Notes under the pieces: generated by a model | Database searches by the model: none | The model's input: the letters and a program-made list of their open reading frames with translations, nothing else | Told to the model about the DNA's origin: nothing | Made by a program: the position numbers and the translations under genes | Shown here: piece by piece, positions 4,801 through 15,446 of the stretch | Layout: every line of letters begins with the position of its first letter | Numbering within the stretch: the first letter of the stretch is position 1 | NCBI GenBank assembly: GCA_031253655.1 | Contig: JAIRVY010000038.1 | Coordinates: forward strand, 1-32,745 | Length of the DNA: 32,745 nucleotides | Direction of reading: 5' to 3' | From: Bacteroidales bacterium | GTDB taxonomy: Bacteria; Bacteroidota; Bacteroidia; Bacteroidales; WCHB1-69

Positions 4801-5786
4801 TGTATAAAATGAGCTGGAAAATCAGTATCGGCAATTACAATCTGAAAATGATTGAGAGCGTGAATATAAAACGCTCTGTAGAATCATTGGTGGATACGGC
4901 TAAAATTACGCTTCCCGCAACAGTATTTAATAAGGCTTTAACAGTAAATAATAAACCCTTTGAAGAGATTATAAAACGGGGTGATTCAGTGAACATCGAA
5001 CTTGGTTACGATGATAATCCTCATGCCGAATTTGAAGGCTATGTGGAAAGTATCAGCACCGATGGCGGTTCTTTAGTATTGAACTGCGAAGATGGCATTT
5101 TCTTATACCGGGTTGAAATTCCAAACAAGGAATTTGCAAACGCTAAGGTAAAGGATATTCTCAATTACGTAAATTCGGAAGTTGGTAAAAAACAAGACAA
5201 AAAATTCTCATTGGAGTGCGATTATGATTTTTCTTATGACAAGTTCGTGATTAAAAGCGCCAATGGCTACGATGTTTTAAAGAAGATTCAGGAAGAGGCA
5301 ATGCCAAATATCTATCTAAAAGAAGATATCCTGCATATTCACCCGCAATATTCTGAAATCTTTGGGGAAGTAAAATACGATTTTTCTAAAAATATTGATG
5401 CAGAGGGCACCGACCTGAAGTATAAGAAAAAAGAGAACAGGAGAGTAAAAGTTACTATTGAATATACCGGAAGTGATGGCAAAACAAAAAAATACGAATT
5501 TGGCGATATGGGCGGCGAAAGTGTTACCAAAAAAACAAGCACAAGCAATCAGGACAGCATTAAACTGTTGGCAAAGCAGGAGTATGAATCGAAAAGCTAT
5601 GACGGATACGAGGGCAGCTTTCAGGGGTGGTTAATTCCCTATTGCGATGCCGGATATAAGGCAACCATTACCGATCCGGATTATGAATATAAAGACGGAA
5701 CGTATTATGTATTGGAAGTAGAAACCAATTTTGGCGAACAGGGCGGAGTGAGAAAAGTTACATTGGGGAAAATAATATCAAAATAA
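4800..5786 (+). CDS. Baseplate hub protein (gpD/Mu gp44-like)
   Basis: 328 aa, beta-rich hub-like start (IKRSVESLVDTAKITLPA... GYVESIS), overlaps previous stop (TAATG), followed by spike gene. Confidence 0.65.
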   Translation: MYKMSWKISIGNYNLKMIESVNIKRSVESLVDTAKITLPATVFNKALTVNNKPFEEIIKRGDSVNIELGYDDNPHAEFEGYVESISTDGGSLVLNCEDGIFLYRVEIPNKEFANAKVKDILNYVNSEVGKKQDKKFSLECDYDFSYDKFVIKSANGYDVLKKIQEEAMPNIYLKEDILHIHPQYSEIFGEVKYDFSKNIDAEGTDLKYKKKENRRVKVTIEYTGSDGKTKKYEFGDMGGESVTKKTSTSNQDSIKLLAKQEYESKSYDGYEGSFQGWLIPYCDAGYKATITDPDYEYKDGTYYVLEVETNFGEQGGVRKVTLGKIISK

Positions 5787-5816
5787 TGGTTAATGATTAG
5801 TGATTAATGATTAATA

Positions 5817-6377
5817 ATGAGTACGAATAGTAGAAAAATCGGACAGGCTTTAAGGCACTTTTCTAATAATAATGGGAAGGGGGACAATCGTAATTTGTTT
5901 TTTACAGCAGAGGTAAAAAAGGTGGACGATGAGAGATGCGATGTGGAAATTGCGGAAACTACTTTTACCGGTGTTCATTTGGCAGCAGTTTCGGATGGAA
6001 ACGAAAACAGCCTGATTATTAAACCAAAAGTGGGTAGTGTGGTATTGATTTGCGACAAAACCGGAGGCGACATGGCATGGATGAATGTAGTAGCATTTTC
6101 GGAAATTGCAAGTATTACGATGAAAATTGATAAAATTGTTATAAACGAGGGAAAAAATGATGGTATGATTATTATTCAAAAGTTAACGGATAAGTTGAAT
6201 GGATTAAAAGATACACTCAATAGCTTAATCTCTGATTACAATGCACATATCCATACAACGACTGCCACAGTTGGACTTGGTCCTGCCTTGGGTGTAATAT
6301 CCCCTATTGCGAAAAAAACTAATCCCGCTTTAACCTTTAATAAATCCGATTACGAAAACGAAAAAATTAAACACTAA
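5817..6377 (+). CDS. Baseplate spike/assembly protein (gpV/gp45-like)
   Basis: 186 aa with OB-like N-terminus (AEVKKVDDERCDVEIAETTFTGVHLAAVSDGNENSLIIKPKVGSVVLI) and NAHIH motif region. Confidence 0.65.
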   Translation: MSTNSRKIGQALRHFSNNNGKGDNRNLFFTAEVKKVDDERCDVEIAETTFTGVHLAAVSDGNENSLIIKPKVGSVVLICDKTGGDMAWMNVVAFSEIASITMKIDKIVINEGKNDGMIIIQKLTDKLNGLKDTLNSLISDYNAHIHTTTATVGLGPALGVISPIAKKTNPALTFNKSDYENEKIKH

Positions 6378-10625: not shown

Positions 10626-10732
10626 ATTCTCACGCTCGTTACGCAAAGCAAAGGTGCTCACACACCACGACAAAGGCTAAATGCCTTGTAGGTGTGTGAG
10701 CACCTTTATATATAAAAAGAACGCGTGAGAAT
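10626..10732. repeat. Three-tier nested inverted repeat
   Basis: Outer ATTCTCACGC (10626-10635)/GCGTGAGAAT (10723-10732); middle AAAGGTGCTCACACACC (10650-10666)/GGTGTGTGAGCACCTTT (10691-10707), 17 bp perfect; inner ACAAAGGC/GCCTTGT. Confidence 0.9.
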
Positions 10733-10757: not shown

Positions 10758-10895
10758 ATGGAAAAAGAACAAAAGAAATTCAACTACCAACAGCAATATG
10801 GCGTGATTATCATTTGCAAGGACGAGGCAGAGCAAATTCGCATTTATGAGGAACTACAAAAACAGGATTTAACATTAAAAGTAGTAACAGTATGA
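10758..10895 (+). CDS. Small 45-aa protein upstream of and overlapping the ABC-GNAT gene (not in ORF track)
   Basis: ATG 10758 to TGA 10893: MEKEQKKFNYQQQYGVIIICKDEAEQIRIYEELQKQDLTLKVVTV; ATGA overlap with next ORF. Confidence 0.6.
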   Translation: MEKEQKKFNYQQQYGVIIICKDEAEQIRIYEELQKQDLTLKVVTV

Positions 10896-12025
10896 TTATT
10901 AAAATAGAAAACAGATGTAGCGATTACAACAGTTACAGGGCGGCACGGGTAAAATCGCTGTTCAATGCCGAAACTGGCTGCAACTGGGACCATACGGCTG
11001 AATTACCCATTGAAAATTTTGATTGGAAAATAGGGCTAATCGTGGGACCATCCGGAAGCGGAAAAACAAGCATCGGCAGTCGTATTTTTCAAAAGCCGAT
11101 TTATGATTTGTACGCAGGATGGGATATAGACAAACCTATTGTTGACTGTATTGCTCCCGACAACGATTTTAACGCGGTAACCGGTGCCTTGTCGGCAGTG
11201 GGCTTAGGTGATGTTCCGGCGTGGCTTCGACCTTTTGACATATTGAGTAACGGCGAAAAATTTCGTGCCGGATTGGCGCGTTTGGTTTGCGAACAACCCG
11301 CACAAGCAGTGGTTGACGAGTTTACCAGCGTTATTGATCGTCAAATTGCCAAAATCGGCGCACAGGCGTTTGGCAAGGCGTGGCAGCGAGGAACAGGGCA
11401 AGTTGTGCTTTTATCGTGCCATTACGATATAATAGAATGGCTACAGCCCGACTGGGTTTATGATACGGCGGAGGCGCGGTTTTATACCCGCGACTGCCTT
11501 CGGCAACGCCCAACAATCGAACTTCAAATTTATAAAGTCAAAGGAAGTGCTTTCCGGCATTTTAAGCCGCATTACTATTTAGATTTGCCCCACCCGGTAG
11601 CAGCAGAGTATTTTGTTGGCATTATTGGCAACGAACCGGTTTGCCATATTGCCGTTTGTCCGCTGTTTACTGCAAAAGCATATCGTGCTACACGATTAGT
11701 TGTTATGCCGGAGTGGCAGGGTGCAGGAATCGGTATGCGATTTTTAAACACAATAGGACAATATCATCTTGATGGACGTGGTCGTTGCGGATACAAACTG
11801 CCAACATTTTTTCACACATCGCATCCGCAGCTGTGCATGGCGTTACGACGTTCCGATAAGTGGATGCAAACAGGAGCACAACTGTATGGCGATAACAAGG
11901 TAAAAAGTGCACTAAGTTTAAAGCGGTCGCGAGACAAAAAAAATATAAGTAATAGAGCAAGTACGGGTTACGGCGGACATTTTAGGGCTGTACAGGCATT
12001 CAAATATATAGGAAATGATAATTAA
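10892..12025 (+). CDS. ABC-type ATPase fused to GNAT-like acetyltransferase domain (Mom-like role hypothesised)
   Basis: Walker A GPSGSGKTS, ABC signature LSNGEKFRAGLARL, Walker B QAVVDEFTSVID, H-loop LLSCHYD; C-terminal GNAT acyl-CoA motif ATRLVVMPEWQGAGIGMRFLN and distal SHPQL...GGHFRAVQAFKYIG. Confidence 0.75.
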   Translation: MIIKIENRCSDYNSYRAARVKSLFNAETGCNWDHTAELPIENFDWKIGLIVGPSGSGKTSIGSRIFQKPIYDLYAGWDIDKPIVDCIAPDNDFNAVTGALSAVGLGDVPAWLRPFDILSNGEKFRAGLARLVCEQPAQAVVDEFTSVIDRQIAKIGAQAFGKAWQRGTGQVVLLSCHYDIIEWLQPDWVYDTAEARFYTRDCLRQRPTIELQIYKVKGSAFRHFKPHYYLDLPHPVAAEYFVGIIGNEPVCHIAVCPLFTAKAYRATRLVVMPEWQGAGIGMRFLNTIGQYHLDGRGRCGYKLPTFFHTSHPQLCMALRRSDKWMQTGAQLYGDNKVKSALSLKRSRDKKNISNRASTGYGGHFRAVQAFKYIGNDN

Positions 12026-12497
12026 TATTTTAGGTAAAAAAGGAGAGGCATATAAAGCCGCAAGCGATTTGGTTATAGCATTGGGGCACTGTATTGCAAC
12101 AAATGGATTGTCGCATGTAGCCATTGCGCCGCTATTAACACAGAAAATAACACTTCAGGAAATCAATTATCCATTATTAGGCACATTGATTTTTCATCCT
12201 TCGCCACTCCCATACGGACGTGGTGCATCGGCAATAAGATGGGCATATCGAAGACGGGAACCGGTAACGGCAGCCACATGGCTTTGGGCAAACGAAAATT
12301 TAGATGCAGGTGATATTTGTGAGCAGGAAATAGTAAAAATTGATTATGAACTGCGTCCGCGTGAGTTTTACGAGCAGCACGTTATTCCGGCGATGCTTAG
12401 AACCTTGGATCGTGCTCTAAATGATATTGAAAAGGGAGTTAAACGGCAAATAAAACAGGTAGAAGAATATGCGACCTATGACTGTAGAATTGAATAA
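12015..12497 (+). CDS. Formyltransferase-fold protein (PurN/Fmt/ArnA-like core)
   Basis: FHPSPLPYGRGASAIRWAYRRREPVTAATWLWANENLDAGDICEQEIVKI matches the HxSLLPxxRGxxPixWa...DxGxI signature; the Asn of the canonical NxH is replaced by Ile. Confidence 0.7.
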   Translation: MIINILGKKGEAYKAASDLVIALGHCIATNGLSHVAIAPLLTQKITLQEINYPLLGTLIFHPSPLPYGRGASAIRWAYRRREPVTAATWLWANENLDAGDICEQEIVKIDYELRPREFYEQHVIPAMLRTLDRALNDIEKGVKRQIKQVEEYATYDCRIE

Positions 12498-13488
12498 AAT
12501 TTATTGTGGAGATGCCTTGAAAACGTTACAGCTGTTCAAAACTGAAAGCGTGAATTGTATAGTGTCATCGCCTCCTTACTATGCGCTTAGAAATTATAAT
12601 GTTGATGGGCAAATTGGTCTTGAGCCAACACCGAAGCAATATTTAAAGCGACTTGCAGATGTATTTATGGAGTGTAGGCGTGTGCTAACAAAGGACGGCA
12701 CAATGTGGATAGTCATTGGTGACAGTTATGCCGGTAGTGGACGTGGAATTGGCGATATAAACAAAAAAGGAATTCAGCAAAAAGCAAGTTTTGTGGGTGA
12801 ATTTTGCAAACCTTACCAACTTGACGGCTATAAGGGTAAGGACTTAATAGGTATTCCGTGGTCGCTGGCTTTTGCATTGCGCGCCGGGGGCTGGTACTTG
12901 CGCCAAGATATAATTTGGCACAAACCAAATCCAATGCCTGAAAGTATCCGCGACCGCTGTACGAAAGCACATGAATACGTTTTTTTATTCAGTAAATCGG
13001 CAAAATATTACTTTGCCCACAACGCCATATTAGAGCCTGCAAAGTATGATGGTCGCAAAAAGATGACACACGAAGGCAGTGCGAAGTACCTTAACGATGC
13101 CGCCGGAATAGCAACACAAAACGTGTCAAAAGGCGGACGTGAGAGATGGCCCAATAAACAGCGCGGATTTTCTACAAAAGACGGCGATACGGGCTTTCCG
13201 GCACAACATCACGGCAGTAATATACCAATGCTCCCTGCACGTAACAAACGCAGCGTGTGGACGGTGCCAACGCGGGGATTTAAAGGTGCGCACTTTGCTA
13301 CCTTTCCGCCCGATTTGATACGCACGTGCATTATTGCAGGCTGCCCACAGGGTGGCATTGTGCTTGACCCGTTCATGGGTGCCGGCACAACGGCAGTTGT
13401 AGCAAAGAAACTCGGCAGAAATTTTATAGGGATTGAACTAAACAGCGACTATATACGTTTAGCAGAGGAGCGGTTGGGTAGTGTGTGA
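12469..13488 (+). CDS. DNA methyltransferase, N-4/N-6 type (SPPY motif)
   Basis: Motif IV VSSPPYYALRNY early and motif I DPFMGAGTTAVVAKKLGRNFIGIELNSDYI at the C-terminus (beta-class order). SPPY is commonly m4C-type. Confidence 0.85.
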   Translation: MRPMTVELNKIYCGDALKTLQLFKTESVNCIVSSPPYYALRNYNVDGQIGLEPTPKQYLKRLADVFMECRRVLTKDGTMWIVIGDSYAGSGRGIGDINKKGIQQKASFVGEFCKPYQLDGYKGKDLIGIPWSLAFALRAGGWYLRQDIIWHKPNPMPESIRDRCTKAHEYVFLFSKSAKYYFAHNAILEPAKYDGRKKMTHEGSAKYLNDAAGIATQNVSKGGRERWPNKQRGFSTKDGDTGFPAQHHGSNIPMLPARNKRSVWTVPTRGFKGAHFATFPPDLIRTCIIAGCPQGGIVLDPFMGAGTTAVVAKKLGRNFIGIELNSDYIRLAEERLGSV

Positions 13489-13528
13489 AAAATGTACAAA
13501 TTGATTTAAAAAAATGTACAAATTGATT
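13488..13528. repeat. Two direct repeats AAAAATGTACAAATTGATT, 22-bp period; candidate transposase/end-binding sites
   Basis: Copies at 13488-13506 and 13510-13528, immediately after the last phage gene and before dnaX. Confidence 0.8.
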
Positions 13529-13633
13529 ATAGGGCTATACTATTTTTAGGTTCGTATTATACAATGATTGTTTTAATATTTGTGAGAATTTATTTTTTGC
13601 AAAATTATTAATAATTTTTTTACAAAAAAAACC

Positions 13634-13696: not shown

Positions 13697-14830
13697 ATGG
13701 ATAATTTTATTGTTTCCGCCCGAAAATACCGTCCACCCACTTTTAATATGGTGGTGGGACAGGATTCTATTGTTTCTACTTTAAAAAACGCCATTAAAAC
13801 CCAACAGGTAGCACAAGCGTTTCTGTTTTGCGGTCCGCGCGGTGTGGGAAAAACTACCTGTGCCCGTATCTTCGCCAAAGCCCTCAACTGCCATAACCTC
13901 ACTTCCGGTTTTGAACCCTGCAACGAATGCGATTCCTGCAAATCGTTCAACGCATCCGCCTCATTTAATGTGTATGAATTGGATGCCGCATCAAACAACT
14001 CTGTAGAAGATATTCGCTCTTTGGTGGAACAAGTGAGAATTAGTCCACAAGGTGCTAAATTTAAGGTTTACATCATTGATGAGGTTCACATGCTATCGTC
14101 ATCTGCTTTCAATGCTTTTTTGAAAACTTTGGAAGAACCACCCCACTACGCCAAATTTATCTTGGCAACTACCGAGAAACATAAAATCATCCCTACGATA
14201 TTGTCTCGCTGTCAAGTATATGACTTTAAGCGAATTGGCGATAATGACATTATGAAACATCTGGCTTATGTAGCTCAAAAAGAGGAGATACAGGCTGAGG
14301 AGGAGGCGCTTCGAGTTATAGCTTCCAAAGCCGATGGCGCACTTCGGGATGCTCTCTCTATCTTCGACCAATTGGTTAGTTTCTCGGGAAAAGATATTAC
14401 CTATCAATCCACCATTCAGCATTTGAATGTGTTGGATGTTGATAACTATTTTAAAATGATAGACTTTCTGTTTAGCGAGGATACTTCTGCAGGATTGTTG
14501 CTTTTTGATGCTATATTGAACTGTGGTTTCGACGGACAGCATTTTATTTCCGGATTGGCGGCACATTTTCGACAGTTGTTGATGGCGCAAAATCCGGCTA
14601 CTATCAAATTGATGGAGGTATCGGCTGCTGTGAAACAAAGTTTTATGGAACAAGCCCAAAAATCGGATAAACAGTTGTTACTTCGTGGGTTAGAATTAGC
14701 CAACCAATGTGATTATAACTATAAACTATCACAGAATAAACGACTTAGTGTTGAAATTTGTTTGATGCAAATCAATGGTAATTATCTTTACAAATTAAAT
14801 GCAGGGGTCAGGCAATCACGGGAGAAGTAG
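13697..14830 (+). CDS. dnaX: DNA polymerase III gamma/tau subunit, domains I-III (gamma-like product)
   Basis: GPRGVGKTTCARIFAKALNC, zinc-binding CNECDSC, IDEVHMLSSSAFNAFLKTLEEPP, ATTEKHKIIPTILSRCQ. Confidence 0.95.
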   Translation: MDNFIVSARKYRPPTFNMVVGQDSIVSTLKNAIKTQQVAQAFLFCGPRGVGKTTCARIFAKALNCHNLTSGFEPCNECDSCKSFNASASFNVYELDAASNNSVEDIRSLVEQVRISPQGAKFKVYIIDEVHMLSSSAFNAFLKTLEEPPHYAKFILATTEKHKIIPTILSRCQVYDFKRIGDNDIMKHLAYVAQKEEIQAEEEALRVIASKADGALRDALSIFDQLVSFSGKDITYQSTIQHLNVLDVDNYFKMIDFLFSEDTSAGLLLFDAILNCGFDGQHFISGLAAHFRQLLMAQNPATIKLMEVSAAVKQSFMEQAQKSDKQLLLRGLELANQCDYNYKLSQNKRLSVEICLMQINGNYLYKLNAGVRQSREK

Positions 14831-15446
14831 TAACGACCCCCCGCCAACGGGTATCGGCAGTTTGGTACAAAACACTACGCCGCAACAATCTACTCGCGGA
14901 TTTGTTGCCCCCTCCGCCGCCCCCGTTAAGAAGACACCGGATATAACGGACATCATTGTAGAGTCGCGGCATGCCACGTCTCAGAAAACGCAGAATGCAG
15001 AAGAGGAGAAGAGCAAAAATGCAGAAGAACAGAAAACTTTACCGCCAGTTTTAACCCCAATGTCCTCAATTTCAACCAACGGGACAGAATCTCAAAAGAA
15101 TTTCCCAGAAATATGGCAGGCAATGTTTGAACTTGTATTTTCCTCTGTTCCAACGATTTATTTTCCATTAAAAAACATTATCCCCGAAATAGAATACAAC
15201 ATTCTTAATCTAACTGTTAAGAATGAAATTCAAAAAGAACACTTTGAAGCCAAAAAAAGAGAAGTGCTGGAATATTTACGCACACATTACAGTGAACAGA
15301 TTGAAAATGTTGTAGTTAGAGCAAACGAACAGATGGAAACTAAGAAAATTATTTACGACATAAAAGATAAATTGCAAAATTTTAAGGAACAAAATGTTGA
15401 ATTTGATGATTTTTTACAAATTTTAGACCTGAAAATTAAAGACTAA
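14799..15446 (+). CDS. dnaX: dnaX tau C-terminal region in +1 frame
   Basis: Overlaps the end of the gamma frame; Pro/Ser/Thr-rich linker then a tau domain-V-like region (FPEIWQAMFELVFSSVPTIYFPLKN...). Confidence 0.8.
   Translation: MQGSGNHGRSSNDPPPTGIGSLVQNTTPQQSTRGFVAPSAAPVKKTPDITDIIVESRHATSQKTQNAEEEKSKNAEEQKTLPPVLTPMSSISTNGTESQKNFPEIWQAMFELVFSSVPTIYFPLKNIIPEIEYNILNLTVKNEIQKEHFEAKKREVLEYLRTHYSEQIENVVVRANEQMETKKIIYDIKDKLQNFKEQNVEFDDFLQILDLKIKD

Follow-up and report, generated by a model that had tools for sequence, protein, structure and literature searches.

Which chemistry does a Mu-like prophage in a Bacteroidales bacterium encode at its right end, and does it act on DNA? The window analyzed here is a whole stretch of 32,745 nucleotides from contig JAIRVY010000038.1 (assembly GCA_031253655.1). 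At positions 10758–13488, it contained four open reading frames (ORFs) arranged head-to-tail: a gene for a 45-residue tail protein, a gene for a fusion of an ABC ATPase and a GNAT acyltransferase (ABC-GNAT), a formyltransferase gene, and a DNA methyltransferase gene. An earlier note, made from the sequence alone, had proposed that the three larger genes form a DNA-hypermodification cassette. The cassette is real and conserved, and it belongs to a family predicted earlier. Its conserved unit is the tail protein, ABC-GNAT, and the formyltransferase; the methyltransferase lies outside it. The preferred reading is a DNA-acylation cassette with a donor enzyme of its own, for which a probability of about 45% was estimated.

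According to this reading, the cassette would be a late one that acylates the phage's own DNA. The ABC ATPase would bind DNA and, with the help of the tail protein, offer a base to the GNAT domain in an ATP-consuming step. The helper would be the 45-residue protein here and the C-terminus of a ParB-like subunit elsewhere. The GNAT domain would then move an acyl group from acyl-coenzyme A (acyl-CoA) onto an exocyclic amine (N6 of adenine, N4 of cytosine, or N2 of guanine). The acyl donor would be made by the gene directly 3′ of ABC-GNAT. In this phage, the formyltransferase would pass the formyl group of 10-formyl-tetrahydrofolate to CoA, giving an N-formyl base. Aspartate decarboxylase (PanD) and a minimal family III CoA-transferase would provide β-alanyl-CoA in another subset of phages, and the many phages without a donor gene would use host acyl-CoA. 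The mark would shield phage DNA from restriction.

The ABC-GNAT protein was a full-length member of phrog_11143 (7.5e-145). Pfam gave ABC_tran at 7e-5 and GNAT at 6e-4, both under the Pfam cut-off, and Formyl_trans_N (3e-9) and N6_N4_Mtase (2e-52) for the two following genes, so that all the domains named in the earlier note were upheld. The AlphaFold model of the whole protein had a pLDDT of 90.3 and a pTM of 0.84. The N-terminal ABC domain carried all of its motifs, namely Walker A (G52-S-G-x-G-K58), the signature (L118-S119-x-G121), Walker B (D142-E143), and the H-loop (H177); the C-terminal GNAT domain carried R268...P273...G277-x-G279. These residues were invariant or nearly so among 82 diverse homologues, and the protein has the composition of a phage ABC-GNAT. 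Relatives numbered 539 in one IMG/VR scan, 484 in a genome collection, and 74 among phage records, with hosts ranging from Bacteroidota to Planctomycetota and Actinomycetota. Tenacibaculum phage pT24 was among the matches, with 99% of the query covered. As related in a 2021 jumbo-phage survey (PMC7824862), Iyer et al. (2013) predicted DNA-base acylation for GNATs coupled to an ABC ATPase, and pT24 is named there. The window protein belongs to this same family with the same predicted activity. The proposed action of the GNAT and ABC pair on DNA bases thus has the backing of a published prediction, and for the same reason the prediction itself is not new. No evidence on what ABC-GNAT does came from papers dealing with Serratia phage eta, with carboxymethylcytosine, or with Leptospira LE3/LE4.

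Neighborhood counts were drawn from 298 ABC-GNAT loci. A gene for the terminase large subunit lay at most 3 kb downstream in 128 of them, and other copies stood at a Mu-like right end; judged by gene order, these would be the places expected of DNA-packaging or DNA-modification genes. A ParB-like gene adjoined ABC-GNAT in 268 of the 277 loci with room upstream. In the window, the ParB part was absent upstream of ABC-GNAT and only the tail was present: the 45-residue ORF was homologous by alignment to the C-terminal ~40 residues of the ParB-like protein, and phrog_28816 matched both this ORF and, independently, residues 155–193 of the ParB-like protein of locus L040. In 215 loci the tail formed part of the ParB-like protein, and in 46 it had a gene of its own; nearly all of these 46 were in phages of the formyltransferase group. 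No ParB domain was found with our own profile anywhere in two complete genomes, those of Porphyromonas phage011a and Pseudomonas phage Komp_PAO1_1. Since the tail persists where ParB is gone, the conserved partner of ABC-GNAT is the tail and not the ParB domain; the tail may dock on ABC-GNAT.

As a member of a conserved ParB tail family, the 45-residue ORF is neither spurious nor an anti-CRISPR protein. Homologues labeled 'acr candidate' were found at L001:3876-4004 and L443:33301-33429 (Porphyromonas phage011a); the conservation argues for a ParB tail partner of ABC-GNAT rather than an anti-CRISPR. Two consecutive ParB-like genes lay 5′ of ABC-GNAT at L299:1266-2544, where PanD and the CoA-transferase lay 3′, and L232 also had two.

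DNA is the expected substrate because of the published prediction, the ABC and ParB partners, and the position near terminase or at a Mu right end. Some kind of DNA modification by ABC-GNAT appears fairly probable.

The formyltransferase was classified by its fold and active site. Its best PDB matches were the hydrolase domain of ALDH1L1 (FDH; 6e-16) and HypX/HoxX (5e-8), and an H-x-S...D site was present in 144 of 144 relatives. In amine formyltransferases such as PurN and ArnA, an Asn stands two residues before the catalytic His; in the 144 relatives, this position was occupied by G, I, A, or V and never by Asn. With the Formyl_trans_N fold, the His/Ser/Asp set, and no amine-type Asn, the protein is of the FDH/HypX class. 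The PurN- or Fmt-type assignment made in annotations elsewhere was ruled out by the best matches and by the missing Asn. In several Gordonia phages, the formyltransferase is called a 'tRNA-methyltransferase' (L003:1805-2452, Axumite gp3), and Pfam identified Formyl_trans_N at 1e-8. The phage enzyme aligned best with the FDH hydrolase and HypX/HoxX N-terminal domains; unlike these, it is a stand-alone protein of 160–220 residues with no dehydrogenase, acyl-carrier-protein-like, or crotonase domain, and in the window type the N-terminal half is compacted.

GNATs take their acyl group from acyl-CoA. Because the formyltransferase is FDH/HypX-like and GNATs use acyl-CoA, the economical reading is that the formyltransferase would make formyl-CoA for the fused GNAT. 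FDH transfers formyl from 10-formyl-tetrahydrofolate to a phosphopantetheine thiol via His106, Ser108, and Asp142; a like mechanism, yielding formyl-CoA, has been proposed for HypX (PMC6802093). A formyl mark in this phage is a tentative assignment.

The formyltransferase gene lay directly 3′ of ABC-GNAT in 74 of the 298 loci. In the reverse direction, 77 of 77 testable formyltransferase loci in viral contigs (69 called and 8 with overlapping called ORFs) adjoined ABC-GNAT, in a scan that took the best 80 matches, was seeded with ABC-GNAT-linked copies, and so favors linked copies; some reverse-scan loci repeat a contig. Among 50,697 phage records, strong matches to the long formyltransferase (at least 38% identity over at least 90% of the length) came only from Gordonia phages and Komp_PAO1_1, all with ABC-GNAT. 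The formyltransferase state required 2 changes on the ABC-GNAT tree. GNATs paired with it bore the distinctive residues H252, W275, F307-H308, and G361-G-H363, which are consistent with a different acyl group; these residues could also reflect history, since the formyltransferase phages form essentially one clade.

A second set of enzymes was found in the same slot. PanD and/or a CoA-transferase III homologue of 213–241 residues replaced the formyltransferase in 11 loci. In reverse searches, likewise seeded with ABC-GNAT-linked copies, 37 of 37 testable CoA-transferase loci (36 called and 1 with overlapping ORFs) and 32 of 40 PanD loci adjoined ABC-GNAT. In the 50,697 phage records, the CoA-transferase occurred only in phage Jace, beside ABC-GNAT. 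The PanD/CoA-transferase state needed 9 changes on the tree of ABC-GNAT (22 non-redundant rows), at least 6 of them forced by supported branches, and the association therefore recurs. The PanD proteins matched PF02261 at 1e-29 to 2e-33 and a PDB entry at 5e-15, and fell below the TIGR00223 equivalog cut-off; Y-x-G-S was present in 39 of 41, and the proteins retained the Gly-Ser site of self-cleavage and the active Lys, Arg, and Tyr. The CoA-transferase is about half the normal length and matched PF02515 (4e-10) in the N-terminal half only. It carried G-D-[ST] in 48 of 50 sequences, a motif that we take to resemble the Asp169 region of formyl-CoA transferase. As a control, 86 ORFs directly 3′ of ABC-GNAT in loci without formyltransferase or PanD were assigned; they belonged to packaging and miscellaneous families. 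No recurring metabolic enzyme, and hence no further donor-type enzyme, was found among these 86.

A modular base-acylation machine with a swappable donor enzyme, making N-formyl bases in one lineage and N-β-alanyl bases in others, is possible and rather doubtful in this full form. Within the literature searched, both would be DNA marks without a previous report. Two features seem to be new: a slot for donor enzymes of two different chemistries, and a ParB tail detached from ParB. The available part of PMC7824862 makes no mention of the ParB-tail partner, the FDH/HypX-type formyltransferase, or the PanD and CoA-transferase slot; parts of this may already stand in Iyer et al. (2013).

The formyltransferase might instead formylate DNA itself, at an exocyclic amine or at the amino group of a larger mark installed by the GNAT, as a second-step decorator with no formyl-CoA involved. 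Amines are common targets of enzymes with this fold, and the gene directly follows ABC-GNAT in the operon. The 144 relatives have the FDH/HypX H-x-S...D set in place of the amine-type Asn, the window protein is compacted to 160 residues with scant room for a DNA-binding surface, and the parallel PanD and CoA-transferase slot indicates donor synthesis. This explanation is unlikely, and synthesis of an acyl donor is preferred.

A whole-protein fold search of the PDB was dominated by ABC ATPases, and the GNAT domain was therefore modeled and searched alone. Only generic GNAT folds were retrieved (template modeling score about 0.6, about 10% identity). The earlier note had held that matches to protein and small-molecule acetyltransferases only would speak against it; literally, such matches were obtained, but the result is uninformative because almost all solved GNATs are of this type. 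The same neighbors are what favors another target: ABC-GNAT could acylate a protein, such as host RNA polymerase, a restriction or CRISPR component, or a packaging protein, with ParB or the tail as adaptor, in host takeover or counter-defense. There is precedent in Rac, a phage GNAT with RNA polymerase as its target (cited in PMC7824862). The ABC and ParB-like partners, terminase proximity, and Mu right end suit DNA better, an enzyme that acetylates proteins would have no need of a donor enzyme of its own, and the hosts of the family span several phyla. A protein target is thus unlikely, and DNA remains the preferred substrate.

Kinship of the GNAT domain with the DNA modifier Mom of phage Mu, suggested in the earlier note, was not supported at the sequence level. 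The Mom profile PF25680 matched Mu Mom at 2.4e-75 and gave no match to the window ABC-GNAT at E ≤ 1, and hhalign of the GNAT domain against Mom returned a probability of 0.1%, with a shallow Mom alignment of 6 close sequences. Like Mom, which makes N6-carbamoylmethyl-adenine, the cassette protein is of the GNAT superfamily, is encoded at the right end of a transposable phage, and follows a small overlapping gene (com in Mu). Unlike Mom, it has an ABC domain, its upstream gene is a ParB tail and not a Com regulator, and a donor enzyme is present in the operon.

TmcA/NAT10 is an ATP-dependent GNAT that makes N4-acetylcytidine. It shares with the cassette an ATPase coupled to a GNAT and, by analogy, an exocyclic amine of a nucleobase as target; it differs in having an RNA helicase rather than an ABC ATPase, an RNA substrate, and acetyl-CoA as donor. 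The pairing resembles TmcA in principle, and the PanD and GNAT neighborhood recalls E. coli, in which the GNAT PanZ regulates PanD. The cassette might accordingly modify tRNA or another RNA, or alter the CoA pool or PanD activity and redirect host metabolism. With an ABC rather than a helicase ATPase, a ParB partner, a terminase neighborhood, and no PanD in most loci, this is very improbable. Two further observations touch these subjects. ASCH-domain proteins lay just 3′ of ABC-GNAT in two loci (L109:7158-7511 and L091:6090-6467); YqfB, an ASCH protein, hydrolyzes N4-acetylcytidine, and by analogy these proteins might remove or read acyl marks. In BFVD, the 214-residue 'aspartate 1-decarboxylase' A0A8S5PZ92 of Siphoviridae sp. 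ctG0D7 matched the ABC-GNAT model by fold; it may be related to GNAT/PanD proteins, or it may be a GNAT under a wrong name.

The three-gene co-occurrence expected by the earlier note was conserved for ABC-GNAT and the formyltransferase and failed for the methyltransferase, which occupied this place in the window and in L007, a close relative, and was missing there from the other loci with ABC-GNAT and formyltransferase. A working part in the cassette was not borne out for the methyltransferase; the most suitable view is that of a separate gene against restriction, acquired at the end of the phage. Action of all three enzymes on one base, with the methyltransferase priming or capping a hypermodified base made with the GNAT and formyltransferase, would fit the tight gene overlaps and the place of the methyltransferase inside the phage, and is very improbable given this unconserved linkage, by which three-gene hypermodification was rejected.

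Several points weigh against the preferred DNA-acylation cassette with its own donor enzyme. The action of ABC-GNAT on DNA is a prediction throughout the family, the GNAT domain had no detectable tie to Mom by the PF25680 profile or hhalign, and its structural neighbors act on amines, proteins, and small molecules. Neither donor enzyme stands beside most ABC-GNATs. The short CoA-transferase, seen by Pfam in its N-terminal half alone, had no PDB match, and a GNAT beside PanD has another possible meaning because of PanZ. The seeding of the reverse scans has been noted above; as the formyltransferase is essentially confined to one clade, a single historical event may account for both its linkage and the special residues of the GNATs. 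Formation of formyl-CoA by HypX is itself proposed and not directly shown (PMC6802093).

The features of the locus are listed in Table 1. The ORFs and overlaps claimed earlier were all present at the coordinates given; the junctions are an ATGA, an 11-nt, and a 29-nt overlap in turn, the last being shorter if an alternative ATG of the methyltransferase at about 12478 is used. The prophage is Mu-like; the cassette follows its tail genes at the right end, and host dnaX lies beyond. The hairpin upstream of the cassette was kept in L007 (about 5760–5815), where a C-to-G change in one arm was offset by G-to-C in the other, and a different sequence in L017 (about 5770–5830) also looked hairpin-capable. 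This suggests that the cassette may be transcribed or regulated separately from the tail genes.

Table 1. Features of the cassette and of the phage right end in the window.
Feature	Positions	Strand	Basis or remark
Inverted repeat, 17-bp perfect, terminator-like hairpin	10650..10707		Between last tail gene and cassette
45-aa tail protein, stand-alone gene	10758..10895	+	phrog_28816 2e-13
ABC-ATPase::GNAT fusion, 377 aa, predicted ATP-dependent acyltransferase	10892..12025	+	ABC ~aa 1–200, GNAT ~aa 208–377
GNAT acyltransferase domain	11513..12022	+	AlphaFold pLDDT 88.5, domain modeled alone
Compact formyltransferase-fold protein, 160 aa, candidate formyl-donor enzyme	12015..12497	+	PF00551 3e-9
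Orphan N6/N4 DNA methyltransferase (SPPY), 339 aa	12469..13488	+	PF01555 1.8e-52
Two 19-nt direct repeats AAAAATGTACAAATTGATT	13488..13528		Just inside right end; same arrangement in L007
Phage right terminus GATTATA	13525..13531		Conserved end in relatives

The right terminus was placed by comparison with relatives. The record of Porphyromonas phage011a terminates with ...CGATTATA. L007, whose ABC-GNAT is 90% identical and which has the same four genes and the same phage end, carries ...GCGATTATA, followed by flanking DNA unlike that of the window. The cassette ends 43 nt before the terminus at 13531, and with the terminus there, all four genes lie inside the phage. The close relatives encode transposase, MuB, and Gam and are transposable phages of the Mu-like kind. 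The right-end position claimed earlier, as for mom, was borne out. In the window itself, the Mu-like traits are the right-end repeats and the terminal GATTATA; the left part of the phage lies outside the window, and a search of the assembly for the Mu-transposase family gave no match, with controls that gave none either. No other copy of the 19-nt repeats was found in the genome assembly, and they are probable transposase-binding sites. The neighboring host dnaX (13697–15446) was split into two overlapping ORFs in different frames, covering residues 1–360 and 434–613 of one NCBIfam model, either by a programmed frameshift or by a misassembly close to a stretch of C residues.

If the preferred reading is true, hundreds of phages carry a DNA-base acylation system whose product would be predictable from the adjacent gene, and folate- and aspartate-derived marks would join phage DNA chemistry. 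The annotations 'acr candidate', 'tRNA-methyltransferase', and 'ABC iron siderophore transporter' would then be corrected. A family predicted in 2013 would gain a concrete biochemical test, namely which nucleoside and which donor, and cultivable carriers are at hand among phages of Pseudomonas, Gordonia, Aeromonas, Leptospira, Lactococcus, and Porphyromonas. The presence of different enzymes beside the same core suggests that each phage may make its own chemical tag, perhaps formyl here and β-alanyl elsewhere.

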